NCBI GenBank assembly: GCA_963402885.1
Contig: OY727093.1
Location: forward strand, 22,133,409-22,197,408
DNA from: Antedon bifida
Lineage: Eukaryota; Echinodermata; Crinoidea; Comatulida; Antedonidae
Length of the DNA: 64,000 nucleotides
Reading direction: 5' to 3'
The position numbers were made by a program, and so were the translations under genes. Below are positions 5,536 to 54,910 of this stretch, in pieces. Every line of letters begins with the position of its first letter. Positions within the stretch are counted from its first letter, which is position 1. The notes below the pieces were generated by a model. The model searched no databases. It worked only from the letters and a program-made list of their open reading frames with translations, and was not told where the DNA came from.

Positions 5536-5563
5536 TGTGTTTGACTACCCCTGCTCTAATATA

Positions 5564-6171
5564 GGGGGTCTCTGTTTTCGAGTTCTCGAAAAGAGAGACC
5601 CCCACTCACGTCTCAATATTACGTTATATAGGGGGTCTCTGTTTTCGAAAATAGAGACCCCCACTAAAACATCTAAATATTACATTATATAGGGGTTCTC
5701 TGTTTTCGAGAAAATCTCGAAAACAGAGACCCCCACTAAAACGTCTCAATATTACATTATATAGGGGGTTTCTGTTTTCGAGTTTTTCTCGAAAACAGAG
5801 ACCCCCACTAAAACGTCTCAATATTAAGTCAATATTACGTTATATAAGGGGTCTCTGTTTTCGAGAAAAACTCGAAAACAGAGACCCCCACTAAAACATC
5901 TCAATATTACATTATATAGGGATCTATTTTTTTGAGATTTCTCGAAAACATAGACCCCCACTAAAACGTCTCAATATTAAGTCAATATTACGTTATATAG
6001 GAGGTCTCTGTTTTCGAGAAAAACTCGAAAACAGAGACCCCCCACTAAAACGTCTCAATATTACGTTATATAGGGGGTCTCTGTTTTCGAGAAAAACTCG
6101 AAAACAGAGACCCCACTAAAACGTATCATTATATTGGGGGTCTCTTTTTTTCGAGATTTCCCGAGACCCCC
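5564..6171. repeat. Tandem array of nine near-perfect hairpins
   Basis: Nine palindromes of about 32-44 bp recur at about 5564, 5631, 5692, 5764, 5848, 5919, 6000, 6073 and 6136. Each is GGGGGTCTCTGTTTTCGAG, a short A- or T-rich loop, and its reverse complement. Spacers share ACTAAAACGTCTCAATATTACGTTATATA with small variations; two are lengthened by AAGTCAATATTA. The outer edges (CTAATATAGGGGG on the left and CCCCCTAATATAAT on the right) are inverted copies of each other. No coding capacity is seen. It could be a MITE or foldback array or a satellite. Confidence 0.85.
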
Positions 6172-8949: not shown

Positions 8950-9365
8950 GATTGCATATTATATGTTATTTACAGTGTTACATTTAAAAAAACAAGGTGA
9001 AAATTAAATATAAAGTTTTGTAATCAATATATCACAGAAAGCACCATTTTTTCTTATGTATTATAATGTATAAAAATAAATACTGATAAGTTTCAAGCTG
9101 AACTAAGTAGACAGTACTTGGTTATTGTGCAACCAAATGATACACAATGTTATTTACAGTGTTAAATATAAAGTTTTGTAATCAATATTACACAGAAAGC
9201 ACCATTTTTTCTTATGTATTATAATGTATAAAAATGAATACTGATAAGTTTCAAGCTGAATGATACACAATGTTATTTACAGTGTTAAATATAAAAGAAC
9301 TGTCCTGTTTAATATAAAAAAAAACAAGGTGAAAACTAAATATAAAGTTTTGTAATCTCTCTGTA
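8950..9365. repeat. Tandem duplication, about 3 partial copies
   Basis: The string TGTTATTTACAGTGTTA recurs at about 8965, 9150 and 9270. The segment between, including AAGTTTTGTAATCAATAT, CACAGAAAGCACCATT, TATTATAATGTATAAAAAT and GATAAGTTTCAAGCTGAA, is repeated almost unchanged. The last copy is shortened and diverges after 9340. It lies beside the transposase remnant and may be part of its non-coding region. Confidence 0.75.
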
Positions 9366-9474: not shown

Positions 9475-10003
9475 TTAATTATCTACGTTTTCATTATTTT
9501 CATTTGTCAGGATAGGGTTCTGAAAGTTTGACAACAGACAAACAACAGTCCAAATTTGGTTTAATGTGCCAAACATTGCTACTGGAAGTGTTGATTTGAA
9601 AATCATGAACGTTTTTATTTTTCCAATAGCCCAGTCTGGATTTTAATTACATCATTTACGTTGAAGTTACCCTTCTCCCTCAGGAAAGGTGGTGAATTTA
9701 ACTTTAAACCCATAGCCCTTAGTTCATCCTCAATAAGAAAACCACGATCAGCCATAACAATGTCACCTTTATGAATTTCACCGCAATTAATTTTTGCCTT
9801 TAAAACATTTAGGAACCCCCTCTATTGACGAGTTCTTTGTCACTGATTGACCCCTCAAATAATTGTGAAACAAAGATAACCCCTCCCTTAGGATCAACAC
9901 CAAGAAGCCCTTTCATGGTAGTGTGGTGCTTATATTGTGAGTAGCTTTCACTTTGTTTTTGTAGAGAACTTGGGATTTGAATGAAAAGCTCTGTAGCAGA
10001 GTA
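9475..10003 (-). pseudogene. PIF/Harbinger-like (DDE_Tnp_4, ISL2EU type) transposase fragment
   Basis: Read on the minus strand it gives ATELFIQIPSSLQKQSESYS, the QYKHHTTMKGLLGVDPKGG segment, FEGSISDKELV, GDIVMADRGFLIEDEL (catalytic-Asp region), LNSPPFLREKG, then AIGKIKTF and NQIWTVVCLLSNFQ. This order is that of the DDE_Tnp_4 domain of Harbinger-like transposases. The part between NDVIKIQ and AIGKIKTF has lost about ten residues with a frame change, and the N-terminal half including the first Asp is missing at the BEL junction near 10003. No terminal inverted repeats were found. It is an inactive remnant. Confidence 0.8.
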
Positions 10004-10703
10004 GGTCTAGCTGTAGTAGCTGTCAAAGTAAGGTGCCCGGGAACCAGAAAGACAATCAAAATGTACGCATTTCTGGACAATGGATCAACTGCAACCTTCT
10101 GCACAGACGCCCTGGCTCATAAATTAAATGCGAAAGGGAGAGAGTCCAGTTAAAATTAACAACAGTAAACGGTCAATCATCATCGGAATGCAACCTCATC
10201 TCATTAGAAATTTCAACCCTGAATGGTGATGCAGTCTTTACAGCACCAAACGTTCACACAAAACCAAAATTGCCAGTCTCAAAAAGTGCAATTGCCACGA
10301 ACGATGATATTAAGAATTGGGTGCACCTGAAAGGGGTAAACATAGATACCATTGATGCAAATGTTGATTTGCTGATTGGGGGAGACCTACCAGAACTACA
10401 CCAACCATATGAAGTGAAACCAGCTATGAATGGTGGGCCATACGCCACACGAACAGCTCTTGATTGGGTTGTGAATGGTCCGTTGACTTCAACTAGATGC
10501 CAAGTTCAAAACTGCAATTTTATTTGTGCAGAACCTCTGGAAGAGCAGTTTAAGCAATTTTGTAACATTGAGTTCAATGATATCCCAACTGAGAAGACAG
10601 TTATGTCTCGGAACGACCTTCAAGCACTACAGATGATGCAAGAATCGACTAAATTAAAAAAACGGCCATTACCAAGTATCAATGCCATAGAAAAGCCCAC
10701 CTG
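10004..10703 (+). pseudogene. BEL/Pao aspartic protease and linker, copy 1
   Basis: The frame opens with GLAVVAVKVRCPG and FLDNGSTATFCTDALAHKL at about 10071-10127; D-N-G-S replaces D-T-G as in Peptidase_A17 (BEL/Pao) proteases. A frameshift at about 10140 moves the rest to the frame that includes DLLIGGDLPELHQPYEV and ALDWVVNGPL, the conserved protease-RT linker. The frame ends at the stop near 10702. It would cut the polyprotein if intact. Confidence 0.8.
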
Positions 10704-10726
10704 AGGAATTTCCAAACAACAAGGCT

Positions 10727-11740
10727 GTGGCGCTGAAAAAACTCAATCTTCTAAAATCTAGGCTGATCAAGGACAGTATACTTCACACGAAGTACACAGA
10801 TTTTATGAACGACCTGTTGTTAAAGGGCTACGCAGAAAAGGCATTGCAGAAAGACCAACCTAGATGGTATTTGCCGCACCATCCGGTGTTGAACCCACAA
10901 AAGCTAGGAAAGGTTCGAGTAGTGTTCGATGGGTCAGCTAAGTATCAAGGTGTTTGCTTAAATGATAACCTTTACCAAGGTCCTGATCTTACAAACACAT
11001 TAGTCGGCGTACTACTGCGCTTTCGTCTGGGACCCATCGCCTTTGCAGTGGACATCGAAAAGAGACTGATAGTCACTACATATCATACTTATGGTGGGAA
11101 GACGGCAATCTGAATATGAACCCACAAGAGTACCAGATGGTTGTACATCTTTTCGGAGGAAAGTCTTCACCTAGTTGTTCCAATTTTGCTCTCCGGAAGG
11201 TTGTCAAAGACCATGCGGATGATTTCGATCCTGTTGTAACTAACGCAGTCAACAACAACTTTTACGTAGACGACTGTCTCAAATCCGTAGACAGCGAAGA
11301 GAGCCAAGGGATTAAAGAATTTGCTGACTCGTGGAGGTTTCAACTTGACCAAGTGGGTCTCAAACTCCAACCAACTTGTATCCACGCTCACAGACAGTGA
11401 ACAGAATGCTTCAACATCATTGTTTGGAGGGGAACAACAAAGAGCACTTGGAGTACACTGGTTTGTAAAACAAGATGCACTTTGATACGTTATTTCTCCA
11501 AAGAAGCAACCCAGTACAAGAAGGGGAATTTTGTCTGTAGTAGCATCCGTCTACGACCCTCTAGGACTAATAACACCATTCATATTAAAGGCAAAGTTGC
11601 TACTCCGAGAACTGTGTTTGATTGGATGCAAATGGGACAAAGCTATTCCAGTAGAACTACAGATTAGATGGCACGAATGGTTAAAGGAACTTCAGAGTCT
11701 CAATAAGTTGAACATTCGACGTTGCTACAAACCGTAAGAT
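10727..11740 (+). pseudogene. BEL/Pao reverse transcriptase, copy 1 (three frames)
   Basis: Segment one (10727-11113) has RWYLPHHPVLNP and KVRVVFDGSAKYQG, ending at a deletion after AFAVDIEK where the next catalytic-Asp stretch is shortened. Segment two (about 11075-11400) has LWWEDGNLNMNPQEYQM and the catalytic NNFYVDDCLKS at about 11250-11280. Segment three (about 11525-11740) has SVVASVYDPLGLITPF, the highly conserved BEL/Pao connection motif. At least two frame changes make it non-functional as read. Confidence 0.85.
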
Positions 11741-11835
11741 TTCGGCAACGTCGCGTATAGAGAGTTGCATCATGTTGGAGATGCATCATCCACGAGCTAC
11801 GGAGCAACGAGTGTGGAAACGTATGCGGGACCCTT

Positions 11836-13608
11836 GTGACTGCGAAGACCCAGACAATTCCTAGATTGGAACTACAAGCAGCTGTCCTGGCAAGTCGCCT
11901 TGACAGAATCATTCGAGAAGAGCTGCATGAAATAAAAATCGATAGAACAGTTTGTTGGACAGACAGCACATGCGTGTTGAGATATTTGAACAATGAAGAA
12001 ACGAGATTCAAGAAATTTTTTGTTGGTAATAGAGTGACAACAATCCTTAACCAAACAACTAAAGAACAGTGGCGACACGTCAGTTCCGCTCAAAATCCAG
12101 CCGATCTAGCCTCACGCGGAATGCCTGCAGAGGATATGATAACAAGTGAAATGTGGTTCACTGGTCCCAGTTTCTTGATGGAAGATGAAAGTGAATGGCC
12201 TCAAATGCCTACCGACTTTAATACTATCGTAGAAGATCCAGAAGTAAAAACTGTAAACGCTGTAACCGTTAAATTAGATGACGACAGAATAAATGACCTC
12301 ATCAACCGCTTTTCAAGTTGGACCAAGTTGATAAAGGTTTTTGCTTGGATACTACGATGGCGACGCAGAGTAAAGAACAAAGGTACCAACATTAACAGTT
12401 TCATATCCGTTGATGAGTGGAAAAACGCTGAGACAGTAATTTTCAGATACATACAAAATCAAGCACTTCACTCTGAAGTTAACCATCTCCAAACCAATCA
12501 ACAAGTCAAGAAGAGTAGCTCTCTCATAAAGCTAGATCCAATTGTAATGAACGATTTGATGCGAGTAGGTGGTAGATTGAAAAGATCTGAAATTAGTGAT
12601 GCAGCAAAACATTATTATCCTTCCAAAGAATCAACATGTAACCTTACTTATCCTACGACACTATCATGCTATTTCCAGGCATTCTGGCGTAGAGCATACA
12701 CTGGCCGCATTACGTCAACGATTCTGGCCGGTGGAAGAGTAAATTTAAAGTCAGTTGTTCGCCGATGTGTGAAGTGCCGTAAGACTACAGTGCCAGTAAT
12801 GCAACAAAAGATGTCCGATCTACCAGCTGATCGCGTTAAATCTACACCACCATTTACCAACATTGGAGTGGACTGTTTTGGTCCATTTTACGTGAGACAA
12901 GGAAGGTCAAGTGTTAAAAGATATGGAATCATCTTCACTTGCTTAAGTGTCAGAGCAGTTCACCTTGAATTATCAAGCTCCTTGGACACTACTTCGTTTA
13001 TTAACGCTCTAAGGAGATTTATTGGCAGAAGAGGAACACCAGTAGAGATTCGCTCTGACAATGGAGGAAATTTTGTCAAGGGGAATAAGGAGTTAAAGGC
13101 CGCAATTGAACTGTGGAATCAAGACCAAATTCACCAATACCTCCTGCAACAACATATTGTGTGGAAATTTAACCCTCCTCTAGCCTCTCATTTTGGCGGA
13201 GTGTGGGAAAGGTGTATTCGAACAGTACGTAAAGTTTTAAGTGGATTAATACAGGAACAAATATTGAAGGAGGAAGGATTAAGAACCCTGTTTTGTGAGG
13301 TAGAAAGCATTATCAATAATCGACCACTTACAAAGGTGTCTGATGATCCGAAGGATAGCGAGCCATTGACTCCGAATCACCTATTGCTGTTACGCACAGG
13401 TTCTCAACTACCACCAGCAACACTTACGCAAGATGATGCTCATGCAACCAAGTGCTGGCGGCAAGTTCAGTACATGGCCGACTTATTTTGGCGTAGATGG
13501 AAACGAGAGTACCTGCCCTCTCTACAGGAAAGGCGCAAATGGCATCACAAGCATGGAAACCTCAAGGTCGGTGACGTTGTAATCCACGGAATTCATGGCC
13601 GCTGGTAG
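11836..13608 (+). CDS. BEL/Pao RNase H and integrase, copy 1 (590 codons)
   Basis: The frame starts with a GTG-read segment TIPRLELQAAVLASRLD and VCWTDSTCVLRYL (RNase H), then SSAQNPADLASRGM. The integrase follows: RRCVKCRKT (end of the zinc-binding domain), VDCFGPFYV (first catalytic Asp), IRSDNGGNFVKG (second Asp) and FGGVWERCIRTVRKVL (Glu). The HHCC zinc-binding part at about 12660-12740 seems to be read out of its family frame between two compensating indels. C-terminal family sequence continues after a frame change near 13590 to a stop at 13745. Upstream RT is in other frames, so this is a fragment of a formerly continuous pol. Confidence 0.85.
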   Translation: MTAKTQTIPRLELQAAVLASRLDRIIREELHEIKIDRTVCWTDSTCVLRYLNNEETRFKKFFVGNRVTTILNQTTKEQWRHVSSAQNPADLASRGMPAEDMITSEMWFTGPSFLMEDESEWPQMPTDFNTIVEDPEVKTVNAVTVKLDDDRINDLINRFSSWTKLIKVFAWILRWRRRVKNKGTNINSFISVDEWKNAETVIFRYIQNQALHSEVNHLQTNQQVKKSSSLIKLDPIVMNDLMRVGGRLKRSEISDAAKHYYPSKESTCNLTYPTTLSCYFQAFWRRAYTGRITSTILAGGRVNLKSVVRRCVKCRKTTVPVMQQKMSDLPADRVKSTPPFTNIGVDCFGPFYVRQGRSSVKRYGIIFTCLSVRAVHLELSSSLDTTSFINALRRFIGRRGTPVEIRSDNGGNFVKGNKELKAAIELWNQDQIHQYLLQQHIVWKFNPPLASHFGGVWERCIRTVRKVLSGLIQEQILKEEGLRTLFCEVESIINNRPLTKVSDDPKDSEPLTPNHLLLLRTGSQLPPATLTQDDAHATKCWRQVQYMADLFWRRWKREYLPSLQERRKWHHKHGNLKVGDVVIHGIHGRW

Positions 13609-13844
13609 TTGTCATGGAAGTATACACAAGCACTGCAGATGGTCTTGTTAGATCTGCTAAAGTGAAGACTAAAACGTCAACTCTCGTTCGACCAATCTCA
13701 AAATTGGTATCGCTTGAAGTCGAAGTGATTTGTTTTAAGATATGAACTTTATTAACTTTTATTTAATCTTTATGTAGTTAGTGTAACTCAAGCTTATTGT
13801 TTGAATTTGTAAAGGCTGGTTTGTGGCGCCTTTAGGGGCCGGTG

Positions 13845-14612
13845 TGTTACAGCTTGAGTATGACGCATTTGGCGTCCCATACTTTATTTTTTAATTACCT
13901 TTCTCATGTTACCGAGGTTACTGTGTTGTTTTCTCCGAAAGTGAGCAGTCATCTTCACCATGTTTCATTCCAAAAGGCATAGTCACAGATAGATGTATGT
14001 TTTATATGCTTTTAATTATTATCATACATTTAATTAATAATTTAGGAATCATATGACGTAAGATTTAGTATTTGTAACTTTATAGTTTTCTTTATTTTGT
14101 AAGTTTAAGTTTCGATCATCCTTGATTGTTACCATCCATTGTGTACAGCATTATGCTAGCCTAAAAGATGCGATTAGCACTGTTCGCCCGACTATATAGA
14201 TTAGTTGGAAGCTTTTAATGATATTATAACTTTATATATTATGATTGACATTCATCGTATTCTGTGGTAGATTTACCCACGATATTGTTCAGTTTATGTG
14301 ATCAACATTTTAGTAGTTTAAGTTAGTTTAGCTATGTAATTGGAAACTTGTATTTTAATATAGAATTCTTCATGGATAGTCCATGTGAGTTATCACGGCA
14401 TACAGAATTATGTTCGTTATGCTTGACTGAGCACAAGTAGTGCGCAGCTGCAGAATAGGCCAATAAGATTGTTTATATGTTATATAAAGGAATTGACTAT
14501 AGAAATTATCAGTATGTACAATACAGTGCTTAATTAGTATTTTGATGCTAATTCTTGTTTATTTTTTCTATTAAATTTCAGTTAAAACCGTTTGACACAA
14601 TAACGCGTTACA
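13845..14612 (+). repeat. 3' LTR of BEL element, copy 1
   Basis: Bounded by TGTTAC (13845-13850) and GTTACA (14607-14612), and preceded by the purine-rich TTTAGGGGCCGG expected of a polypurine tract. It contains ATATAAAGG at about 14479 as a possible TATA box. Its match at 19762-20527 differs by a short indel and few substitutions. Confidence 0.7.
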
Positions 14613-15635
14613 AGTTTCTGTTATTTGCCTTTTACACGTGACTGGAGGTCACATGCCGCTATCTTATTTCTTGGCCTCTATTTTTCAAGTTTTAATGTGG
14701 GATTTTCATCCAGAAATCAATGGCTAAGGCCAGTCGATGGATACTCTGAGCCGGTAAGCTGCAACATTCCTAGCACCACTGTATATAAATGTTGGAATTT
14801 GTATCTATGCGGTCAAAGCAGTCCGAGTGTTGTTGCATTCCAACGTAGTAGCAGACCATCAAGGAAGATCTACAGTGCACCACGTTTGCTCTATTCTAAT
14901 TCTACTGTTACATTCTGTATTCTTTTAAGTGGCGATGTTGAATCGAATCCAGGTCCAGGTAATACTCAGACATCTTCAGTTCAGGTATACTATCAAAACG
15001 TATGTAGCCTGAAGAATAAAATGGACGTATACAACTCAGATCTGATTGCACACCTAATTCAGAGCAATTTGGATATTGTCGCACTTACGGAAACATGGTT
15101 AAACTGCAACATGCTCGATTCTGAACTTTCCGTTTCTAATTACACTTTATTTCGACGCGATAGAGATACTGATAAACGTGGTGGTGGTATCCTGATGCTA
15201 GTGAATAACAAATTTACCTGTAACCGAGTGGAACACCTAGAAAGTGATTCAACAGAGTTCATGTGGATAGAGATTAAGCTAAAGCGGCGTAAAAGCCTAC
15301 TTGTTGGATTATTCTATAGACCACCGAACGCTACACTTGATGTCCTCCGTCGTTTTACTTCGTCTGTGGAAATCGCTATGCTCTACCACAAAAACAGTGA
15401 ATTCTTCATTCTTGGAGATTTCAACCTACCCGAAATTAATTGGAGTAGCAACCCTCATTCTGCTCCAGCTCAGTCTATGGGAGAACACTTACTTGATGTA
15501 TTGCTTTCTAGCTGTGGCCTATTTCAATGCAATACGTTTTGTACAAGACTGGATAAAATGCTTGATCTTGTTATTTGTAGTAAAAACATCTCCGACAAAG
15601 TCTATACTGCTAACGATATTTTTTTATCCGTTTAA
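14604..15635 (+). CDS. LINE ORF2 N-terminus with 2A-like peptide and AP endonuclease, copy 1
   Basis: The open frame begins after a stop at 14601, inside the LTR end, and has no in-frame ATG before the 2A region, so its true start is unclear. A hydrophobic N-terminal segment (AAILFLGLYFSSFNVGF) is followed at 14931-14957 by GDVESNPGP, a 2A ribosome-skipping motif. The endonuclease begins at once: QNVCSLKNKMD, ALTETWL, GGGILMLVNN, IEIKLKRRKS, FILGDFNLPEINW, LDLVICSK. The final Ser-Asp-His motif is missing where the frame changes at 15635. This architecture is known in CR1-group LINEs. Confidence 0.85.
   Translation, partial: RVTSFCYLPFTRDWRSHAAILFLGLYFSSFNVGFSSRNQWLRPVDGYSEPVSCNIPSTTVYKCWNLYLCGQSSPSVVAFQRSSRPSRKIYSAPRLLYSNSTVTFCILLSGDVESNPGPGNTQTSSVQVYYQNVCSLKNKMDVYNSDLIAHLIQSNLDIVALTETWLNCNMLDSELSVSNYTLFRRDRDTDKRGGGILMLVNNKFTCNRVEHLESDSTEFMWIEIKLKRRKSLLVGLFYRPPNATLDVLRRFTSSVEIAMLYHKNSEFFILGDFNLPEINWSSNPHSAPAQSMGEHLLDVLLSSCGLFQCNTFCTRLDKMLDLVICSKNISDKVYTANDIFLSV
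14931..14957 (+). promoter_or_regulatory. 2A-like ribosome-skipping signal in LINE, copy 1
   Basis: It encodes GDVESNPGP, matching the 2A consensus D-(V/I)-E-x-N-P-G-P. In 2A peptides the ribosome fails to join the last Gly and Pro and continues, releasing the upstream product. Here it would separate an N-terminal hydrophobic leader from the endonuclease-RT protein. Confidence 0.85.
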
Positions 15636-16379
15636 ATTTTGATGTTAATTGTAGTAATGATAATTTGAATCGTAAAAGTATAATTTACAATTTTAAAGCA
15701 CTTGATGTCAATGATCTATGTAATACTCTTAACTGTGTTCCATGGAGTGTCTTAATTGATTTTGAAGGTGATTTAAATGAAGCTTTGGATATTTTTTATA
15801 ATTTGCTAAATGCTGCCGTCAATGACACAGTGCCTAAAATTAGAAAGCACAGAAAGCTTCCTCCGTGGTTTGACAACGAGTTGAGAAGTGCGCTTCAACT
15901 CAAAGAAAAGTATTATAGATATCTGAAAAAACATAATAATCGGTTAGCCCAAAGTAATTTCAAATTTGCTCACGCGTCCTTTAAACAAATGTGCAATAAA
16001 AAGTACAAAGATTACTTGGACTCTTTGGCTAAGCAAATTGTCACTAACAGTAAAAGATTTTGGAGCTGGATGAAAACTAAATACAAGTCAAATAATCTTC
16101 CTTCTGTCATGAGTCACGATAATATTTAATTCCAGTCTAATTATGATAAAGCTACCACATTTAATTCTTATTTTATTATATATTCTTTTTTCAGTGAGCC
16201 TTCTCCGGACGTTCCCCGAGACTATCCAGCTCTTCCTGACTATGCGGTGGATAACTTGAGTTCGCCGTCTGTGAATCAGCATTCTGTGGAAAAGGCACTT
16301 AGTGACATTAATATCAATAAAGCTACTGGCATTGATCAGATTAGTAACGTTGTCTTAAAGGGTGCCTCCTCCTCACTCT
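15636..16379 (+). pseudogene. LINE linker between endonuclease and RT, copy 1 (cut at duplication junction)
   Basis: A frame at about 15638-16126 reads KHRKLPPWFDNELRSALQLK and NSKRFWSWMKTKY, the typical EN-RT linker of CR1/Jockey-group LINEs. After a stop at 16127 it continues in the same style with VEKALSDININKATGIDQIS, the start of RT. It stops at 16379 where the second duplication unit begins, so copy 1 has no RT of its own. Confidence 0.8.
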
Positions 16380-17657
16380 GATTGGGTTGTGAATGGTCCG
16401 TTGACTTCAACTAGATGCCAAGTTCAAAACTGCAATTTTATTTGTGCAGAACCTCTGGAAGAGCAGTTTAAGCAATTTTGTAACATTGAGTTCAATGATA
16501 TCCCAACTGAGAAGACAGTTATGTCTCGGAACGACCTTCAAGCACTACAGATGATGCAAGAATCGACTAAATTAAAAAACGGCCATTACCAAGTATCAAT
16601 GCCATAGAAAAGCCCACCTGAGGAATTTCCAAACAACAAGGCTGTGGCGCTGAAAAAACTCAATCTTCTAAAATCTAGGCTGATCAAGGACAGTATACTT
16701 CACACGAAGTACACAGATTTTATGAACGACCTGTTGTTAAAGGGCTACGCAGAAAAGGCATTGCAGAAAGACCAACCTAGATGGTATTTGCCGCACCATC
16801 CGGTGTTGAACCCACAAAAGCTAGGAAAGGTTCGAGTAGTGTTCGATGGGTCAGCTAAGTATCAAGGTGTTTGCTTAAATGATAACCTTTACCAAGGTCC
16901 TGATCTTACAAACACATTAGTCGGCGTACTACTGCGCTTTCGTCTGGGACCCATCGCCTTTGCAGTGGACATCGAAAAGAGACTGATAGTCACTACATAT
17001 CATACTTATGGTGGGAAGACGGCAATCTGAATATGAACCCACAAGAGTACCAGATGGTTGTACATCTTTTCGGAGGAAAGTCTTCACCTAGTTGTTCCAA
17101 TTTTGCTCTCCGGAAGGTTGTCAAAGACCATGCGGATGATTTCGATCCTGTTGTAACTAACGCAGTCAACAACAACTTTTACGTAGACGACTGTCTCAAA
17201 TCCGTAGACAGCGAAGAGAGCCAAGGGATTAAAGAATTTGCTGACTCGTGGAGGTTTCAACTTGACCAAGTGGGTCTCAAACTCCAACCAACTTGTATCC
17301 ACGCTCACAGACAGTGAACAGAATGCTTCAACATCATTGTTTGGAGGGGAACAACAAAGAGCACTTGGAGTACACTGGTTTGTAAAACAAGATGCACTTT
17401 GATACGTTATTTCTCCAAAGAAGCAACCCAGTACAAGAAGGGGAATTTTGTCTGTAGTAGCATCCGTCTACGACCCTCTAGGACTAATAACACCATTCAT
17501 ATTAAAGGCAAAGTTGCTACTCCGAGAACTGTGTTTGATTGGATGCAAATGGGACAAAGCTATTCCAGTAGAACTACAGATTAGATGGCACGAATGGTTA
17601 AAGGAACTTCAGAGTCTCAATAAGTTGAACATTCGACGTTGCTACAAACCGTAAGAT
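16380..17657 (+). pseudogene. BEL/Pao linker and reverse transcriptase, copy 2
   Basis: It is the same as copy 1 with identical frame breaks, starting at the duplication edge in DWVVNGPLTSTRC. Segments include KVRVVFDGSAKYQG (about 16830), NNFYVDDCLKS (about 17170-17200) and SVVASVYDPLGLITPF (about 17445-17500). A one-base loss in the A run near 16575 alters the end of the linker relative to copy 1. Shared frameshifts show that decay came before duplication. Confidence 0.85.
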
Positions 17658-17752
17658 TTCGGCAACGTCGCGTATAGAGAGTTGCATCATGTTGGAGATG
17701 CATCATCCACGAGCTACGGAGCAACGAGTGTGGAAACGTATGCGGGACCCTT

Positions 17753-19525
17753 GTGACTGCGAAGACCCAGACAATTCCTAGATTGGAACTACAAGCAGCT
17801 GTCCTGGCAAGTCGCCTTGACAGAATCATTCGAGAAGAGCTGCATGAAATAAAAATCGATAGAACAGTTTGTTGGACAGACAGCACATGCGTGTTGAGAT
17901 ATTTGAACAATGAAGAAACGAGATTCAAGACATTTTTTGTTGGTAATAGAGTGACAACAATCCTTAACCAAACAACTAAAGAACAGTGGCGACACGTCAG
18001 TTCCGCTCAAAATCCAGCCGATCTAGCCTCACGCGGAATGCCTGCAGAGGATATGATAACAAGTGAAATGTGGTTCACTGGTCCCAGTTTCTTGATGGAA
18101 GATGAAAGTGAATGGCCTCAAATGCCTACCGACTTTAATACTATCGTAGAAGATCCAGAAGTAAAAACTGTAAACGCTGTAACCGTTAAATTAGATGACG
18201 ACAGAATAAATGACCTCATCAACCGCTTTTCAAGTTGGACCAAGTTGATAAAGGTTTTTGCTTGGATACTACGATGGCGACGCAGAGTAAAGAACAAAGG
18301 TACCAACATTAACAGTTTCATATCCGTTGATGAGTGGAAAAACGCTGAGACAGTAATTTTCAGATACATACAAAATCAAGCACTTCACTCTGAAGTTAAC
18401 CATCTCCAAACCAATCAACAAGTCAAGAAGAGTAGCTCTCTCATAAAGCTAGATCCAATTGTAATGAACGATTTGATGCGAGTAGGTGGTAGATTGAAAA
18501 GATCTGAAATTAGTGATGCAGCAAAACATTATTATCCTTCCAAAGAATCAACATGTAACCTTACTTATCCTACGACACTATCATGCTATTTCCAGGCATT
18601 CTGGCGTAGAGCATACACTGGCCGCATTACGTCAACGATTCTGGCCGGTGGAAGAGTAAATTTAAAGTCAGTTGTTCGCCGATGTGTGAAGTGCCGTAAG
18701 ACTACAGTGCCAGTAATGCAACAAAAGATGTCCGATCTACCAGCTGATCGCGTTAAATCTACACCACCATTTACCAACATTGGAGTGGACTGTTTTGGTC
18801 CATTTTACGTGAGACAAGGAAGGTCAAGTGTTAAAAGATATGGAATCATCTTCACTTGCTTAAGTGTCAGAGCAGTTCACCTTGAATTATCAAGCTCCTT
18901 GGACACTACTTCGTTTATTAACGCTCTAAGGAGATTTATTGGCAGAAGAGGAACACCAGTAGAGATTCGCTCTGACAATGGAGGAAATTTTGTCAAGGGG
19001 AATAAGGAGTTAAAGGCCGCAATTGAACTGTGGAATCAAGACCAAATTCACCAATACCTCCTGCAACAACATATTGTGTGGAAATTTAACCCTCCTCTAG
19101 CCTCTCATTTTGGCGGAGTGTGGGAAAGGTGTATTCGAACAGTACGTAAAGTTTTAAGTGGATTAATACAGGAACAAATATTGAAGGAGGAAGGATTAAG
19201 AACCCTGTTTTGTGAGGTAGAAAGCATTATCAATAATCGACCACTTACAAAGGTGTCTGATGATCCGAAGGATAGCGAGCCATTGACTCCGAATCACCTA
19301 TTGCTGTTACGCACAGGTTCTCAACTACCACCAGCAACACTTACGCAAGATGATGCTCATGCAACCAAGTGCTGGCGGCAAGTTCAGTACATGGCCGACT
19401 TATTTTGGCGTAGATGGAAACGAGAGTACCTGCCCTCTCTACAGGAAAGGCGCAAATGGCATCACAAGCATGGAAACCTCAAGGTCGGTGACGTTGTAAT
19501 CCACGGAATTCATGGCCGCTGGTAG
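17753..19525 (+). CDS. BEL/Pao RNase H and integrase, copy 2 (590 codons)
   Basis: It is identical in length to copy 1 and differs by one noted residue (Lys to Thr in the FKTFFVGNRV segment). It has the same RNase H (WTDSTCVLRYL) and integrase motifs (VDCFGPFYV, IRSDNGGNFVKG, GGVWERCIRTVR), and the same apparent out-of-frame zinc-binding stretch. The C-terminal tail continues after a frame change to a stop at 19662. Confidence 0.85.
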   Translation: MTAKTQTIPRLELQAAVLASRLDRIIREELHEIKIDRTVCWTDSTCVLRYLNNEETRFKTFFVGNRVTTILNQTTKEQWRHVSSAQNPADLASRGMPAEDMITSEMWFTGPSFLMEDESEWPQMPTDFNTIVEDPEVKTVNAVTVKLDDDRINDLINRFSSWTKLIKVFAWILRWRRRVKNKGTNINSFISVDEWKNAETVIFRYIQNQALHSEVNHLQTNQQVKKSSSLIKLDPIVMNDLMRVGGRLKRSEISDAAKHYYPSKESTCNLTYPTTLSCYFQAFWRRAYTGRITSTILAGGRVNLKSVVRRCVKCRKTTVPVMQQKMSDLPADRVKSTPPFTNIGVDCFGPFYVRQGRSSVKRYGIIFTCLSVRAVHLELSSSLDTTSFINALRRFIGRRGTPVEIRSDNGGNFVKGNKELKAAIELWNQDQIHQYLLQQHIVWKFNPPLASHFGGVWERCIRTVRKVLSGLIQEQILKEEGLRTLFCEVESIINNRPLTKVSDDPKDSEPLTPNHLLLLRTGSQLPPATLTQDDAHATKCWRQVQYMADLFWRRWKREYLPSLQERRKWHHKHGNLKVGDVVIHGIHGRW

Positions 19526-19761
19526 TTGTCATGGAAGTATACACAAGCACTGCAGATGGTCTTGTTAGATCTGCTAAAGTGAAGACTAAAACGTCAACTC
19601 TCGTTCGACCAATCTCAAAATTGGTATCGCTTGAAGTCGAAGTGATTTGTTTTAAGATATGAACTTTATTAACTTTTATTTAATCTTTATGTAGTTAGTG
19701 TAACTCAAGCTTATTGTTTGAATTTGTAAAGGCTGGTTTGTGGCGCCTTTAGGGGCCGGTG

Positions 19762-20527
19762 TGTTACAGCTTGAGTATGACGCATTTGGCGTCCCATACT
19801 TTATTTTTTAATTACCTTTCTCATTACCGAGGTTACTGTGTTGTTTTCTCCGAAAGTGAGCAGTCATCTTCACCATGTTTCATTCCAAAAGGCATAGTCA
19901 CAGATAGATGTATGTTTTATATGCTTTTAATTATTATCATACATTTAATTAATAATTTAGGAATCATATGACGTAAGATTTAGTATTTGTAACTTTATAG
20001 TTTTCTTTATTTTGTAAGTTTAAGTTTCGATCATCCTTGATTGTTACCATCCATTGTGTACAGCATTATGCTAGCCTAAAAGATGCGATTAGCACTGTTC
20101 GCCCGACTATATAGATTAGTTGGAAGCTTTTAATGATATTATAACTTTATATATTATGATTGACATTCATCGTATTCTGTGGTAGATTTACCCACGATAT
20201 TGTTCAGTTTATGTGATCAACATTTTAGTAGTTTAAGTTAGTTTAGCTATGTAATTGGAAACTTGTATTTTAATATAGAATTCTTCATGGATAGACCATG
20301 TGAGTTATCACGGCATACAGAATTATGTTCGTTATGCTTGACTGAGCACAAGTAGTGCGCAGCTGCAGAATAGGCCAATAAGATTGTTTATATGTTATAT
20401 AAAGGAATTGACTATAGAAATTATCAGTATGTACAATACAGTGCTTAATTAGTATTTTGATGCTAATTCTTGTTTATTTTTTCTATTAAATTTCAGTTAA
20501 AACCGTTTGACACAATAACGCGTTACA
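19762..20527 (+). repeat. 3' LTR of BEL element, copy 2
   Basis: It runs from TGTTAC to GTTACA, with the same polypurine-like AGGGGCCGG just upstream. It differs from copy 1 by the loss of two bases near 19825 and by TAGACCATG for TAGTCCATG. The two are duplicated copies of the same 3' LTR, not the two LTRs of one element. Confidence 0.7.
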
Positions 20528-21545
20528 AGTTTCTGTTATTTGCCTTTTACACGTGACTGGAGGTCACATGCCGCTATCTTATTTCTTGGCCTCTATTTTT
20601 CAAGTTTTAATGTGGGATTTTCATCCAGAAATCAATGGCTAAGGCCAGTCGATGGATACTCTGAGCCGGTAAGCTGCAACATTCCTAGCACCACTGTATA
20701 TAAATGTTGGAATTTGTATCTATGCGGTCAAAGCAGTCCGAGTGTTGTTGCATTCCAACGTAGTAGCAGACCATCAAGGAAGATCTACAGTGCACCACGT
20801 TTGCTCTATTCTAATTCTACTGTTACATTCTGTATTCTTTTAAGTGGCGATGTTGAATCGAATCCAGGTCCAGGTAATACTCAGACATCTTCAGTTCAGG
20901 TATACTGAAAAACGTATGTAGCCTGAAGAATAAAATGGACGTATACAACTCAGATCTGATTGCACACCTAATTCAGAGCAATTTGGATATTGTCGCACTT
21001 ACGGAAACATGGTTAAACTGCAACTCGATTCTGAACTTTCCGTTTCTAATTACACTTTATTTCGACGCGATAGAGATACTGATAAACGTGGTGGTGGTAT
21101 CCTGATGCTAGTGAATAACAAATTTACCTGTAACCGAGTGGAACACCTAGAAAGTGATTCAACAGAGTTCATGTGGATAGAGATTAAGCTAAAGCGGCGT
21201 AAAAGCCTACTTGTTGGATTATTCTATAGACCACCGAACGCTACACTTGATGTCCTCCGTCGTTTTACTTCGTCTGTGGAAATCGCTATGCTCTACCACA
21301 AAAACAGTGAATTCTTCATTCTTGGAGATTTCAACCTACCCGAAATTAATTGGAGTAGCAACCCTCATTCTGCTCCAGCTCAGTCTATGGGAGAACACTT
21401 ACTTGATGTATTGCTTTCTAGCTGTGGCCTATTTCAATGCAATACGTTTTGTACAAGACTGGATAAAATGCTTGATCTTGTTATTTGTAGTAAAAACATC
21501 TCCGACAAAGTCTATACTGCTAACGATATTTTTTTATCCGTTTAA
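20519..21545 (+). pseudogene. LINE 2A and endonuclease region, copy 2 (frameshifted)
   Basis: The leader and GDVESNPGP (20846-20872) are as in copy 1, but a change from TATACTATCAAAACG to TATACTGAAAAACG creates a stop at 20906. The endonuclease reopens at about 21009 after a further 4-bp loss, with GGGILMLVNN and FILGDFNLPEINW, and ends at 21545. These changes are specific to this copy, so it decayed further after duplication. Confidence 0.85.
20846..20872 (+). promoter_or_regulatory. 2A-like ribosome-skipping signal in LINE, copy 2
   Basis: It encodes the same GDVESNPGP as copy 1. Only a short tail (GNTQTSSVQVY) follows before the stop, so skipping here would not yield a usable endonuclease. 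Confidence 0.8.
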
Positions 21546-21654
21546 ATTTTGATGTTAATTGTAGTAATGATAATTTGAATCGTAAAAGTATAATTTACAA
21601 TTTTAAAGCACTTGGAGTGTCTTAATTGATTTTGAAGGTGATTTAAATGAAGCT

Positions 21655-22270
21655 TTGGATATTTTTTATAATTTGCTAAATGCTGCCGTCAATGACACAG
21701 TGCCTAAAATTAGAAAGCACAGAAAGCTTCCTCCGTGGTTTGACAACGAGTTGAGAAGTGCGCTTCAACTCAAAGAAAAGTATTATAGATATCTGAAAAA
21801 ACATAATAATCGGTTAGCCCAAAGTAATTTCAAATTTGCTCACGCGTCCTTTAAACAAATGTGCAATAAAAAGTACAAAGATTACTTGGACTCTTTGGCT
21901 AAGCAAATTGTCACTAACAGTAAAAGATTTTGGAGCTGGATGAAAACTAAATACAAGTCAAATAATCTTCCTTCTGTCATGAGTCACGATAATATTTAAT
22001 TCCAGTCTAATTATGATAAAGCTACCACATTTAATTCTTATTTTATTATATATTCTTTTTTCAGTGAGCCTTCTCCGGACGTTCCCCGAGACTATCCAGC
22101 TCTTCCTGACTATGCGGTGGATAACTTGAGTTCGCCGTCTGTGAATCAGCATTCTGTGGAAAAGGCACTTAGTGACATTAATATCAATAAAGCTACTGGC
22201 ATTGATCAGATTAGTAACGTTGTCTTAAAGGGTGCCTCCTCCTCACTCTCTTATCCGCTTTGCAAATCTA
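21655..22270 (+). pseudogene. LINE EN-RT linker, copy 2
   Basis: It matches copy 1 from the 40-bp deletion onward (KHRKLPPWFDNELRS), with the same stop after MSHDNI. It then reads NINKATGIDQISNVVLKGAS and continues past the duplication edge into SLSYPLCKSIN before a stop. A short TCTATTATCTATCTATTATT microsatellite at about 22289-22315 separates it from the RT. Confidence 0.75.
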
Positions 22271-22307
22271 TTAATTAAAATTTATTAATCTATTATCTAT
22301 CTATTAT

Positions 22308-23652
22308 TTGCTATCTATTAATTCTGGGGTTTTTCCTTCATCTTGGAAACGCGCTAATATTGTCCCAATTCACAAGAGTGGTCCCAAAAAACTAATCTGT
22401 AACTATCGTCCTATTTTGTTATTGCCTACTGTGTCTAAGATTTTTGAGCGCATTGTGCATGATGGTTTGTCATCACATGTTGCTAATGCTTTAAGTCCTA
22501 GGCAGCATGGATTTGTCTCGGGGAGATCATACCAAACCAACCTTGCACTGCTTCTTGCTACATCATACGATGCAATTAACAGCAAGAAGCAGTGCGATGT
22601 GATTTACACTGATTTCTCTAAGGTTTGATTCCATTTCCCATGATTTGCTTATTTTTAAACTTTCCAAATTTGGTTTATCCGGTTCACTTTTAAGTTGGTT
22701 TAAAAGCTATTTAACTAATAGACAACAGCGTGTTGTCATTAGGGGGAGACATCTGATTGGCTCCCTGTGTTATCGGGCGTTTCGCAGGGCTCGATCCTGG
22801 GCCCGCTTTTGTTTAATTTATTTATCAACGATCTTCCTTTAAAATTTAATCATTCCGAGTCTCTTTTATTTGCTGACGATCTGAAATTGTTTAAAGTGAT
22901 TACTACTCCACAGGATGCTTTTTCACTTCAGGAGGATCTGGATGGTCTTGTGGAATGGACGGAGAAGTGGGGGCTGAAACTTAATGCTAATAAATGCAAA
23001 TATTTATCTATAACACTTAAAAAAAGGCCTGTGCTCTTCAATTATAATTTGAATGGACATGATCTTCAGATGGTTTATGTACAGAAGGATTAAGGTATTT
23101 TTATTGATAGTAAATTAAATTTTTGTTCACATATTATTCATGTGAATGATGGGCTTGATATGGAGAAATTGTAGGTTTATCAACAACGGCAGGGCACTTT
23201 TATCTTTATACAAATCTATTATACGTCCTCACCTTGAATATTGTTCCGTAATTTTCAATTCAATTTCTCCATGTCAGGCCCGTCGAATCGACACTGTTCA
23301 ACGGAAGTTTGTACGATTCCTGTCTTATAACTGTGTTAATTTTGCCTTTTCCATTGATTCTGTCAGCAATCGTCGAACGATATCTGATATGGTTTTTTTA
23401 TATAATATTTTAAATTCTAAATATGACTGTTCATTAATTTCACTATTTAATTTAAATGTCCCTGGTCGTACACGAAATAGACATTTATTGCATATTCCTT
23501 TTAGCCGTGTCGACTGTACTAAGAGGGGAATTTTTCATAGACTACCATATACATTTAATAATCTAAATAGCAATCATATTGATATTTTTAATGACAGGCT
23601 TGGTTATTTTAAGAGGAAGATTATGTGTTCACTTCTTGAAAAGCCTGCATAA
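22308..23652 (+). pseudogene. LINE reverse transcriptase and C-terminal domain (frameshifted)
   Basis: Segments in different frames give SINSGVFPSSWKRANIVPIH, CNYRPILLLPTVSKIFERIV, LSPRQHGFVSGRSYQTN, VIYTDFSKV then DSISHDLL, LSGVSQGSILGPLLFN, the catalytic ESLLFADDLKLF (about 22859-22893), and from 23146 LYKSIIRPHLEYCSVIFN with VQRKFVRFLSYN. This order is that of CR1/Jockey-group ORF2. Frameshifts occur near 22626, 22760, 23092 and 23145. Confidence 0.85.
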
Positions 23653-23849
23653 CCTGTTTGATTATTATAAATTTTAAATTGAAATTGTTTATGGCATGCT
23701 GATCTATGTTATTTATATATATATATATAAATCCAAAGGCAAATTACTGAAAAAAATGACAATGCTGTGGGTATCAGTGGCTGGATCTCAATGGAGATAC
23801 AAAAAAAAAAGCGAAAAGCTAAATCAAAATGATAAAGTAAACAGCCAGA

Positions 23850-23895
23850 AAAGTTAGCAGAGCTTTCGGGCAACACTAGCCCTTCATCAGTGCAA
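23850..23895 (-). ncRNA. Hammerhead ribozyme-like motif in the Penelope 3' UTR
   Basis: On the minus strand the box CTGATGA (23890-23884) is followed by one A, a stem GGGC (23882-23879), a 7-nt loop, its partner GCCC (23871-23868) and the box GAAA (23867-23864). A short stem III is possible as AGC-TCT-GCT, with A as the cleavage residue at 23855. Stem I is poor in this copy. PLE terminal regions are known to hold hammerheads with minimal stem III, so this is probably a decayed copy. Confidence 0.6.
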
Positions 23896-24132
23896 GTGAG
23901 GGAATTCGGATGAAGTCATAGCATATGAGTTGGCAAGTGCTGCCTGGGTGGACAGGAATAAAAGAAATATAACAATAGAAACAGCGTGTTGAATAGTGGG
24001 TGGAGACTGAATAAGAGTAGAAAACAAAGAAGGTAGCTTGGTAGAGATATAAACAATTTTGGAATGGAACTAAAAAAAGCTAAAATGGTGGTTAATATTG
24101 AAACTTAAATTTTGGTAGTCAATGGAATAATT

Positions 24133-24760
24133 TTACCGATCTGGGAGTATGTTCCTAATGTTAAGTCCAAAAGGTTTTGTGGTTTTAAGTAGTAATTCCC
24201 AGTGGTTTTCTTTGTCTTTGCGAGTTTTGTCGCTCCATTTGACATCGTGGTCTATTGCAATAACTCTGAAATTTGCAATCGAGTGACCAGCTGAATTAAA
24301 ATGTTCGGCTACAGGTTGATCAAGCTTTAATGTTTTGATAGCTGATCTATGTTGTGTCATTCTCATACGGAGAGTGTTTTTTGTTTCTCCGACGTACTGT
24401 TTGCTACAAATATTACAGTATATGAGATAAATGACGTTTTTGGTTAGACAATTAATTGATTGTCTTATCCGAAAAATGCGGCCAGTTTGGTTACTCTGAA
24501 ATTTTTCAGTAGAATCAACCAATGAACAAGTTTTGCAAGATTTGCCGCAAAGATGACTGCCCAAATTTTGGCTGTCATGAGAGTTAATTTCACTCGTAAA
24601 TTTGGATCTGACTAATATATCACGAAGGTTGAGAGGTCTACGAAATGCAATAATGGGTGGTTCCGGAAAAACAGTCCTGAGACGTTCTGTGGACTGTAGA
24701 ATGGGCATATGTTTCTCAATAATAGCCTGTAATGGAGGCAACCTAGGGTGGTATAAATAT
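24133..24760 (-). CDS. Penelope-like element GIY-YIG endonuclease domain (partial)
   Basis: The frame begins with RLPPLQAIIEKHMPIL and VFPEPPIIAFRRPLNLRDIL, the end of the PLE RT/linker. A Cys-rich CGKSCKTC motif follows, then VIYLIYCNICSKQYVGETKN, the GIY-YIG core in PLE form, and RMRMTQHRSAI, AEHFNSAGHSIANF and NHWELLLKTTKPFGLN with the expected His and Glu residues. It ends in ILPDR. The domain would nick target DNA to prime reverse transcription. The frame of about 205 residues has no internal stop. Confidence 0.9.
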
Positions 24761-24975
24761 CTATATATATATAAACACAGCAGGCAAAGAACATTAATTC
24801 TAAACCGCCCGGTGATATACTGAAATTTAATTAATTAATTTGAAACGATAAAGATGAGGTATATATATATATATATTTATCTGTATTTTATTGTTAACCG
24901 TTTTTGATGCTGTATTGTTTTATGTTTCAAACCTGTTAGTTTTGACTGAATAAAATAAAATAAAAATAAAACTAC

Positions 24976-33777: not shown

Positions 33778-35169
33778 TCTATATATAAATTATGGTTAAT
33801 TCTGACATAGGCGAGCACAATGCAAAAACTTCGGTACAAATCTCCGCCTTGGATACCTACCTTATCTATCTCAGATGTACCGCGAAACGTAGATTTGATA
33901 ACATTAATGTGCAGTTCGACGCTATTTTTCCATATTTCTATCTTAGCAAGATATTATAAAGAGTTTTTTAACAACATTTATGATTTCAACAGTAGATTTT
34001 CTACTCAATTTCAATTCTTGGCAGTCAAGTTATTTCCGGGTTTATGATAAGTTCACCTTGCAGCAACTTGGTTTCAACTATTTTCTCTCTTTTATACACA
34101 AGGGAGCAGTTAAAATAATAGATTTGACCCTAAAGGTGACTGGAAACAGGCACTTTCCATCAATCAATACAGTGTCCCTTTGGAAGACGGAAGAAAAAAA
34201 CAGATACTATAGTAGGACTGGAGCTTAAGTTGGCCATTAGTCATAGCCATTTTAGTTTTTTGTTTATTTTAGGAACGGACCGCGCGTGTGAAAGGTACAG
34301 TAGTTAAAAAATAAAAATTATACTGCAAATTAATAAAGATCAAATTAAATATACGCCATAAAGAATTGGAATATAATGTGGGGAATAGTATTATAAAATT
34401 ACATAGGGAGATTTGATGATAAGACATTAATCGAGTGAAATCCCGATAGCTGAGTTTTATTAAGTAAGCTGGCAGGAATAACTGTAGGCTATCTGTGTCC
34501 TGTTAGGACCGAGATGTCTGCCCATCTTGCAAGCCGTAATGCCTTCTTTCTTGGGCCGAAATGGCCCACTCTGTCACGGCAGTTAGTTTCAAAAGATGTT
34601 TAAATTAAATAATGTATTAATACTTGATATTTATTTGAATAAACGCCTCTCCAATAAAACATCACTTTGAATAATAATCACCACCCCCCCTCCCCCCCAA
34701 CCCAACTATCTAATAAACGTCCATCCCATCCACATTTATAATAACACAATTATACTATTTGTAGTAGAATTCATCGCACTGTTATCTACAATTTACCAAG
34801 CATTTGTTATTCTTTTTTACCACTTTTCATATCTATTAGATAGAGGATTTCATTTGATTATAAATGTTACCATATTATTAAAACTAAAAAATTTAACATA
34901 TATCCCTCGAATAAGCCCCTCCCTCGAGTCAAATGAACTCCGCCTCCCCACCTCCGCCCTATAAGGGCCCTACCAAATAATAACGACTATACTTTAAAAT
35001 GTTATTAATCATCTAAGACACTGTGAAACAGAATAGTTTAGTTTTACGAATGTCAAGCATTTTCAATAATGGTAACCGACAGAAAACGTAAAAGAAGAAC
35101 ATTATCATTCCGAGAACCATCGTCTACACTTCCTAGAGGGGGAGCGAGCGAAGCGAGGTCACCCTCTAG
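33778..35169 (+). mobile_element. Helitron-like insert in an AAT run of the LINE
   Basis: It begins TCTATATATA and ends CTAG, inserted between A (left) and T (right) inside AATAATAAT, matching the Helitron rule of 5'-TC...CTRR-3' with A/T flanks and no target duplication. The end holds GAGCGAGCGAAGCGAGG and a terminal CTAGAGGG/CCCTCTAG inverted pair. No Rep/helicase frame is seen, so it would be non-autonomous. LINE coding resumes directly after it. Confidence 0.55.
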
Positions 35170-36604
35170 TAATAATAATAATAATAACAATATTGGTAAT
35201 GATGATAATAATAATGTTGTTGTTAATGAAGACAAGGTTTTAAGAGAATTTGCACGTGTAAAAGTCAATAAGGCAACTGGACCAGATGGAATTTCAAACA
35301 AAATTTTAAAAGTGTGCAATATCCAACTATGTCCAATTTTTACTTATATTTTTAATATTATTTTTAGAAATGGTACTGTTCCACGCATATGGAAAACTTC
35401 TATTCCATTGCCTAAAGTTAATAAACCTAGTGTACCAAAAGATTTTAGACCAATTGCAATTACTTCAAATATAATGAAATGCTTAGAAAGGTTGATTGTA
35501 TCTAGACTTAAGGAAAATATTGGTAATGCAGATAAGAATCAATTTGCATATAAGAAAAATAGAGGGATTGACGATGCTGTAAATTCTTATCTCCATGATA
35601 CATATCATCACCTTGATTCAAAAAGAAATTATGTACGGTCTATATTTTTCGATTTCTCCAGTGCTTTTAATACTATTTTACCACATGTTTTAATTGATAG
35701 ATTATTAAGTTTTAATGTCTCACCTCAGCTCGCCAAAGTTATATATAGTTTTTGATTAATAGACCACAGATGGTTAAGTGCAATGGTATTCTATCCAACA
35801 AAGAATCTATCAGTGTTGGAGCTCCTCAAGGATGTGTTATTTCCCCAATTTTGTTTTCTTTTTATTCAAGTAGTTTTAATATTTTAAGTAAAGATTGCAA
35901 TATTGTAAAATACTCTGACGATACTGTAATTAGTGGTTTTCTTTGCGATAGTAAGCAATAATGTAAATGAATTTGTTAATGAAGTTGGAAGATTTGTTAA
36001 TTGGTGAGGATATGAACTTAATACTTAATATTACTAAAACCAAAGAGATGATAATAGATTTTCGTAAAACCGCAGTTGAACATAATGTAATAACTATTAA
36101 AGAAACCGAGGTTGAAAGAGTAACCCAATACAAATACTTAGGTACTATAATTGACAACAAATTAAAATGGGAGTCAAACTCTCTCATGATTTCCAAGAAG
36201 GCATCTCAAAGGCTTTACTTTTTCAGAAAACTCAAGCAAATTAGAGTTGATAACACTATTTTAATTCTATTTTATCAAAGTATTATTCAAAGTATTTTAT
36301 CTTTTAGCATTGGATGTTTTTATGGTAACTTTACTGAAAATGATAAGAAAAATATTGAGAGACCACGAAAATTGCACAACGTATTATTAAAGCTGATCTA
36401 ACGCCTTGTTCATTTATCTATGAAAAGAGTATTAAAAAAAAAGTAAACAATATTATGAAAGACCCCACTCATCCGTTACATTACTGTTATAACTTAAATA
36501 GATCAGGTATTAGGCTACGACCTCCAAGAGCAAATCTTTGTGGAACTAGAAAATCCTTCGTTGTAAATAGCATTCATATTTTAAATTCTAATGTAAGACG
36601 ATAA
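35170..36604 (+). pseudogene. LINE reverse transcriptase and C-terminus (frameshifted)
   Basis: After an Asn-rich stretch come EFARVKVNKATGPDGISNKI, PKDFRPIAITSNIMKCLERL, FFDFSSAFNTILPHVLIDRL, then (frame change near 35750) VGAPQGCVISPILFSFYSSS and the catalytic KYSDDTVISGF at about 35909-35940, then VTQYKYLGTIIDNKLKW, ILFYQSIIQSILSF and a tail to 36604. Ser replaces the usual Ala before the Asp pair. The RT palm is largely present but in at least four frames. Confidence 0.85.
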
Positions 36605-53104: not shown

Positions 53105-54120
53105 TTTATTCGGCAAAAGTTCATAAAGTACAATTCATCTTGCCAGGAGCAAGTAATAGGCATGAGCCCAAACAGAAAACTGCTCTTACTCCATCATTAC
53201 TTATAAAATACAAAAATAACAAAACTAAGTAGCACAAATTAAGTCAAAATAAAACAAAACAAAACAAAACAAAGTTATAATGAGATACACCAATTAAAAA
53301 TAAGCTGCATTGAATAAATAATATAAACAATTACAACTTAATATTTTGAGATCAAATGTTTGGTGAGTTGGGATTTAAAGTCTGAAATTGTAGCACATTG
53401 TTTAATTTCATTGGGAAGTTGCTCCCATAATCTAGGGAAAATAACAAACGATGAATTTAAAAATGTATTGGTCTTTGCCTTCCAATGTATTAACCGCCCT
53501 TCACACCTCTCACTTGATCTCACAAACTCATTAAAGGATGAGGGACAGAGGCCATGCATTATTTTAAAACCTAATGTGAGTCTATACACTTTAAATACAT
53601 CTTCAATACTTAAAATATTTAGGGTCTTCAACCTATATAAATATGAAGTGTCCCAATTTCCTTCTTTTCTGTACATAATTATTCTAGTGGCCTTTCTCTG
53701 AACCCTTTCAAGTCTATACATATGAGATATTTCAGTAGGTGCCCACATACAACAACAGTAAGTCACAACAGGTAGTATTAGTGCTTTGTAAAGATTTAGC
53801 ATTGCCATCCAAGACATTGCTTTACTACATCTTGAAACAAAACCAAGAAGTTTGCTTGCCTTACTACAAACATAATCTACATGAGAGTGGCATGTTAATT
53901 TACTGTTGATATATACACCAAGTAGTTTAATTTCATGGACTCTTTCCGTTGAATCGGAATTGATATCGTAAGCAAATATGATGGGATCTTTACACCTGGA
54001 TAAACTCATTGCTGCACATTTTGATGCATTTAATGGTAGTTTATTTAAAACTGACCATTCATAAATCTTATTTAAATCACTCTGTAACTTTATACAGTCT
54101 TCTAATTCATGAATAGGTCT
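53077..54120 (-). pseudogene. LINE reverse transcriptase C-terminal part and 3' tail
   Basis: From about 54115 the frame reads PIHELEDCIKLQSDLNKIYE, then (54009 on) VHEIKLLGVYINSKLTCHSH, LYKALILPVVTYCCCMWAPT, RLERVQRKATRIIMYRK and ENFxR-type tail residues ending ISKY at 53338. The 3' UTR ends in a run of ATT (minus strand) at 53077-53105. It is 5'-truncated; RT palm and catalytic Asp pair are absent. A CR1/Jockey-group origin is likely. Confidence 0.8.
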
Positions 54121-54124
54121 TGAA

Positions 54125-54165
54125 ATGGTATGGTATGGTAAATGGTATGGTATGGTAAATGGTGC
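54125..54165. repeat. TATGG/TAAATGG microsatellite at the LINE 5' junction
   Basis: ATGGTATGGTATGGTAAATGG is repeated twice directly between the LINE 5' end and the transposase. It is extra sequence relative to the joined transposase frame. Confidence 0.7.
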
Positions 54166-54910
54166 GTTGTTTGATGATTATTTGACGGACTTAAACAATC
54201 AAATGAGGTTTCAGGGTAGAAATATTTTATTATTTCTTGATAACGCCTCCTCTCATGTTGGATTAGAGAAGAGCACCAAGCTTGCGTTCCTACCACCAAA
54301 CACAACGTCTGTTTTACAACCGCTTGACCAAGGAATAATTAAAGCGTTTAAAAGTCGCTACAGAGCAAAGTTGTTGCGGAGTGTTTTAGCAAAAGTTGAT
54401 GATGCACAATCAGCAAGCGACATCACAAAACAAACTAACGTTCTGGATGCAGTAAACTGGACAGCAACATCATGGAGAGAGACATCAGAGACTACAATAA
54501 TTAAATGCTTTAACCGTTGTGGATTTAACTGTTTGAACAATACCCAGATTGACGACAATAATGTTGACATGGTGGAAGGAGAGATTGACACCAATTTAGA
54601 CGTAGAAACATACATAAACATTGATAATTTAATTCCGGTAGAAGAAATTAGCGATGAATGGGAACATGAACTAATCAGGATCTATAATGGTGACAAGGAA
54701 GGAGCTGATGATGAACCAGAAGGCGATGAGGATGAAAACACTGATGATTTTAGAACTTTATCTTTTAGCGAAATGTTATCTATGATTGGTCAAATTAGGA
54801 ACAGTGTTCGTTCAAAGGCACATCACTTTGAAATTATCGAACAACTTCAGGAATTAACGGAAATTATGGAGAAAGAAATTTTAATTAAACGCAGAAACAG
54901 GCGTCTTTAG
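54160..54910 (+). CDS. Tigger-like transposase, C-terminal DDE part
   Basis: LFDDYLTDLNNQMRFQGRNI leads to LLFLDNASSHVGLEKS (second catalytic Asp, at about 54238), LAFLPPNTTSVLQPLDQGII (third acidic position region) and FKSRYRAKLLRSVL, all typical of DDE_1 transposases. The C-terminal part is acidic (GADDEPEGDEDENTDDF) and ends with a helical, basic tail. The frame is intact to the stop. Its upstream ATG region (54125-54160) is repeat-derived and not native. Confidence 0.85.

Follow-up and report, generated by a model that had tools for sequence, protein, structure and literature searches.

A probable tandem duplication with almost no junction homology in transposon remnants of the crinoid Antedon bifida

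In the assembly of the crinoid Antedon bifida (315.6 Mb in 27 contigs), two nearly identical 5.9-kb blocks lie head to tail within the window, that is, the whole stretch of 64,000 bp analysed here (G000:C1:22133409-22197408). Judging from the sequence, we consider it likely that these blocks represent a fairly recent, real tandem duplication that occurred through DNA repair, nearly free of homology, with both copies having decayed separately since. Pairwise alignment places unit 1 at 10462..16379 (5,918 bp) and unit 2 at 16380..22249 (5,870 bp), both on the plus strand, as are the element parts, the filler and the differences between the units described below, and reproduces the coordinates, lengths and head-to-tail order proposed in an earlier note on this DNA. 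Adjacent blocks of such size and similarity are far beyond chance. At the junction (16379/16380), CACTCT is joined to GATTGGG, as the earlier note had it, with 1 bp of homology, and no gap letters are present there or anywhere else in the window.

Seven events separate the two units. Five of these change the length, by 1, 2, 1, 4 and 40 bp, with unit 2 being the shorter in all five cases, and their sum is exactly the 48-bp difference, as had been calculated before. The roughly three substitutions noticed previously resolve into two isolated substitutions and a short complex change consisting of two mismatches and a 1-bp gap.

The shared content recognized earlier (BEL pol, LTR and the 5' half of a LINE) was identified in both units as the 3' part of a BEL/Pao pol, an LTR-like stretch and the 5' part of a LINE. 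The BEL pol frame, located at 11761..13605 in unit 1 and at 17678-19522 in unit 2, scores above the Pfam cutoff for Peptidase_A17 (PF05380) and DUF5641 (PF18701) and below it for rve, so that the unit contains the Pao peptidase-type pol with integrase that is characteristic of BEL/Pao elements, the integrase being a below-cutoff match. Downstream is the LTR-like stretch (13903..14654 in unit 1, with approximate limits), in which positions 14555-14649 match the sequence upstream, and positions 14563-14654 the sequence downstream, of a BEL pol on contig C9; further LTR-like matches, to L028, are weak. Apart from the duplicate, no second LTR was found around the BEL coding part in the window, and thus, the BEL/Pao element is a remnant. 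A piece of the same pol occupies the left flank (9998..10461) and runs on into unit 1, the relative L013 aligning with 9998-10499; a search of the LTR against the window detected no 5' LTR for this piece, and comparison of the left flank with the C9 BEL copy further left showed no homology. The nearest other BEL copies are 73-75% identical, so that the BEL part lies about 25-27% from its closest relative. The left flank also contains a 99-bp direct repeat (9004-9260; 97% identity, with the copies 158 bp apart).

The LTR-like matches stop at 14654 and homology to the LINE copy L037 begins at 14663, which places the LINE at or in the BEL LTR. The 5' part of this LINE, recognized by L037 homology, Pfam and translation, extends over 14663..16379 in unit 1 and 20578-22249 in unit 2 and contains the endonuclease domains PF03372 and PF14529. 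The remainder of the same LINE, with the reverse transcriptase (RVT_1, PF00078) and the 3' end, makes up the right flank (22250..24971), where it extends to about 24971 and is broken by about 1 kb of other sequence (~23733-24751). Endonuclease and reverse-transcriptase domains are thus found in one element, as in endonuclease-type LINEs. The frame at 14604 carries, ahead of the endonuclease, what we take to be a 2A-like motif. Motifs of this kind have been documented in non-LTR retrotransposons (PMC4981915). The nearest other LINE copies are 94-95% identical over long matches and 92-98% over shorter ones, and the LINE part of the unit differs from L037 by 5.1%. The inserted sequence near the LINE 3' end (23733-24751) lies between TA-rich stretches, and an associated minus-strand frame (24136-24834) has a GIY-YIG match just above the cutoff; we presume that this insert is perhaps a Penelope-like remnant.

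The two breakpoints fall in unrelated elements, the left one inside the BEL/Pao pol remnant and the right one inside the LINE reverse-transcriptase region. Among related copies elsewhere in the genome, the BEL relative L013 is unbroken across 10461/10462, L014 and L015 likewise but along a shorter alignment, and five LINE relatives (L037, L039, L040, L041 and L042) cross 22249/22250, L037 by only 18 bp in one of two alignments. Because the relatives are continuous over both breakpoints, a single copy is the ancestral arrangement, leaving 16379/16380 as the sole new join. Unit 1 is continuous with the left flank and unit 2 with the right flank, which is the arrangement of adjacent direct copies that defines a tandem duplication. 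The absence of long repeats at the edges, pointed out earlier, is borne out: 1 bp is shared, as in 29% of random point pairs with the same spacing in the window (n=20,000), 52% of which share 0 bp, and comparison of the 600-bp stretches surrounding the breakpoints gave a single match, 10 bp long and inverted (E 0.27). No long homology thus connects the breakpoints, as in non-homologous tandem duplication, and the homologous repeats at both edges that characterize NAHR are absent from the unit edges.

Comparison with relatives indicates which copy has changed, and the derived changes are distributed over both units. At the 1-bp difference in an A-run (10656 in unit 1), unit 2 aligns with L014, L015 and L016 in a single piece of 101 residues, a stop among them being common to all, whereas unit 1 falls into two frames; by this comparison, the change is derived in unit 1. 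The same holds for the substitution at 12014, where the codon of unit 2 is that of L014, L015 and L016, which are near-identical copies lying here beside an alignment gap and so amount to hardly more than one witness. At three other sites, namely the complex change with its net loss of 1 bp (14992 in unit 1, 20907..20908 in unit 2), the 4-bp loss (15110 and 21023..21024) and the 40-bp loss (15703 and 21612..21613), L037 has the length of unit 1, and at the first of these also its bases, differing from unit 1 by single bases inside the 4-bp stretch and both inside and beside the 40-bp stretch. With L037 as the single witness, all three changes are derived in unit 2. The 2-bp difference (13907 in unit 1, 19823..19824 in unit 2) probably arose by loss in unit 2, going by L026 at a poorly aligned spot, with L013 being ambiguous. 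The substitution between 14380 and 20295 has no polarity; no relative covering the site was found. By eye, 14372-14386 in unit 1 forms a short inverted repeat around a 3-bp loop, which the base at 14380 makes perfect; unit 2 has a mismatch there.

The derived changes therefore number two in unit 1 versus three clear ones and a weak one in unit 2, with one event lacking polarity (two-sided binomial for 2/6, p = 0.69). The earlier note saw decay in unit 2 only, a reading that is contradicted by the changes at 10656 and 12014, and one-sided decay of unit 2 is rejected. Its suggestion that the 40-bp loss was a replication slip holds in part: the loss did occur in unit 2, given that L037 keeps the stretch, but the edges share 2 bp (by eye), so that slippage and end joining are both compatible with it.

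A feature new here is an AT-rich filler of 42 bp that replaces 7 bp at 22268..22309, 18 bp past the right breakpoint. It is carried by none of the five LINE relatives aligned (0/5) and is private to the locus. Its first nine bases recur shortly downstream (by eye), as in filler copied from nearby, and among the sequences compared, only weak AT-rich matches were found as a source. Relatives cover 1,480 bp of the right flank, and in this span only two indels of at least 10 bp set the window apart from every relative covering the site, namely the filler, with a net gain of 35 bp, and a loss of 17 bp at 23144. The probability that one of these lies no more than about 20 bp from the breakpoint by chance is about 3%, a proximity noticed post hoc and judged against relatives (L037-L042) that are themselves mutually related. 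The filler is perhaps a repair scar of the duplication event and is what break repair in the animal can leave; being single-copy and outside the unit, it may also predate the duplication. At the left breakpoint, no scar is apparent relative to L013, the 503 aligned columns containing a single gap base.

The history that best accommodates these observations would begin with a decaying BEL/Pao element that took up, at or in its LTR, an endonuclease-type LINE with a 2A-like motif. Thereafter, 5.9 kb reaching from within the BEL pol to within the LINE reverse-transcriptase region would have been duplicated head to tail by an essentially homology-free route, and units 1 and 2 would then have decayed separately. 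Template switching during the repair of a replication fork and the end joining of sister chromatids broken at staggered positions are the candidate routes, and both fit the sequence equally well. The next copies are far more distant (73-75% for BEL, 94-95% over long matches for the LINE), which argues against a mix-up with another repeat and gives no support to the idea that unit 2 was imported from another copy. With two to three substitutions, the divergence over 5,870 bp amounts to 0.03-0.05% (95% range 0.004-0.15%), and if the differences postdate the duplication, the latter is much younger than the splits from L037 (5.1%) and from the closest BEL relative (~25-27%). Against this history, length changes make up five of the seven events, a proportion that is unusual under neutral divergence.

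A comparable array was encountered on contig C14 (10988179-11015217; L009-L012) by chance, when the BEL search returned three hits on C14 at intervals of exactly 9,013 bp, a find that carries no rate. The array consists of three head-to-tail copies of 9,013 bp with one difference, between the first copy and the others, and like the locus described here, its copies are near-identical and its edges share no more than one base; it differs in having three copies with a single difference and a G-rich run that ends at the left edge. Similar arrays thus occur elsewhere in the assembly, which does not in itself establish that either is real. A scan of 16 loci (L013-L016 and L037-L048; matches of at least 250 bp), outside which the C14 array lies, found no multi-kb tandem duplications. 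Three pairs at 98% identity or higher were detected, of 322 bp (L014), 714 bp (L015) and 417 bp (L044, starts 1.2 kb apart), the first two of which we read as putative LTR pairs; the remaining listed pairs are 81-95% identical, mostly short-period arrays. In Drosophila, 35% of the CNV breakpoints reported in one study are blunt and 41% have at least 2 bp of microhomology, in a set consisting mostly of insertions and deletions (PMC4056370), and by these figures, the junction here is ordinary. The tandem duplications of that set are likewise head to tail and lack long edge homology, although they are rare among the CNVs reported there, and the crinoid locus differs in lying wholly in transposon remnants.

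Tandem duplication, which the earlier note proposed as one possibility and as very recent, remains the best-supported reading, given the continuous relatives and the 1-bp junction; its alternative there, a false (heterotype) duplication, in which the copy of one haplotype was placed after that of the other and the differences are alleles, is improbable but deserves to be taken seriously. The order of left flank, copy A, copy B and right flank is the layout that such an error predicts as well, and private changes in both copies are expected of two alleles. Like the heterotype false duplications described in one study, the locus comprises two near-identical neighbouring copies in one scaffold; it differs from them in being gapless, false duplicates in that study mostly having a gap between them and in some cases a link of unsupported sequence (PMC9516828). 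Here, there is neither a gap at the junction nor an overlap to prompt joining by the assembler, the low substitution divergence makes an assembly error less likely, and two haplotypes alone cannot produce three copies on C14, though the C14 array may differ in cause. Somewhat less probable still is that the duplication and the filler are products of one error-prone repair event, by template switching or polymerase-theta-like joining, with some of the copy-specific indels made during that synthesis.

We regard it as rather remote that a real duplication joined copy A from one homologous chromosome to copy B from the other, with differences older than the duplication: the layout would be identical, and the unit 1 changes do lie in the left part and the unit 2 changes in the right part, a partition that is not significant with so few changes; nothing specific speaks against this route, and the one assembly fits it and a simple duplication equally well. 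Unequal crossover between repeats or a second retrotransposition is hardly credible, for even though the unit is made of repeats, which are able to recombine, its breakpoints share 1 bp and lie in two unrelated elements that both run on into the flanks, which rejects retrotransposition of the unit, and the present edges lack the repeats that a crossover would use, although a repeat lost since would escape detection.

Elsewhere in the window, an array with periods of about 72 bp and about 155 bp, the unit of which also has inverted matches, spans 5559-6164, and transposon remnants lie at 35042-35752, 54113-54907, 56238-56831 and 60775-63077, which among them contain two reverse-transcriptase frames, a DDE_1 transposase, an RNase H domain and zf-RVT below cutoff. 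No RNA families at gathering scores and, in a scan with the bacterial setting, no tRNAs were found in the window.

We view the locus as ordinary genome biology, the unit consisting of broken transposon genes that suggest no function, and its lesson, with little meaning beyond the locus, is that outgroup copies are needed before one of two near-identical neighbours is named as the decaying one. Together with the C14 array, it marks two places where the assembly deserves caution. If duplication and filler did arise in one event, the locus and the C14 array would suggest a genome prone to tandem duplication of 5-10 kb nearly free of homology, and both arrays and the filler, if real, would be usable examples of how such duplications form.
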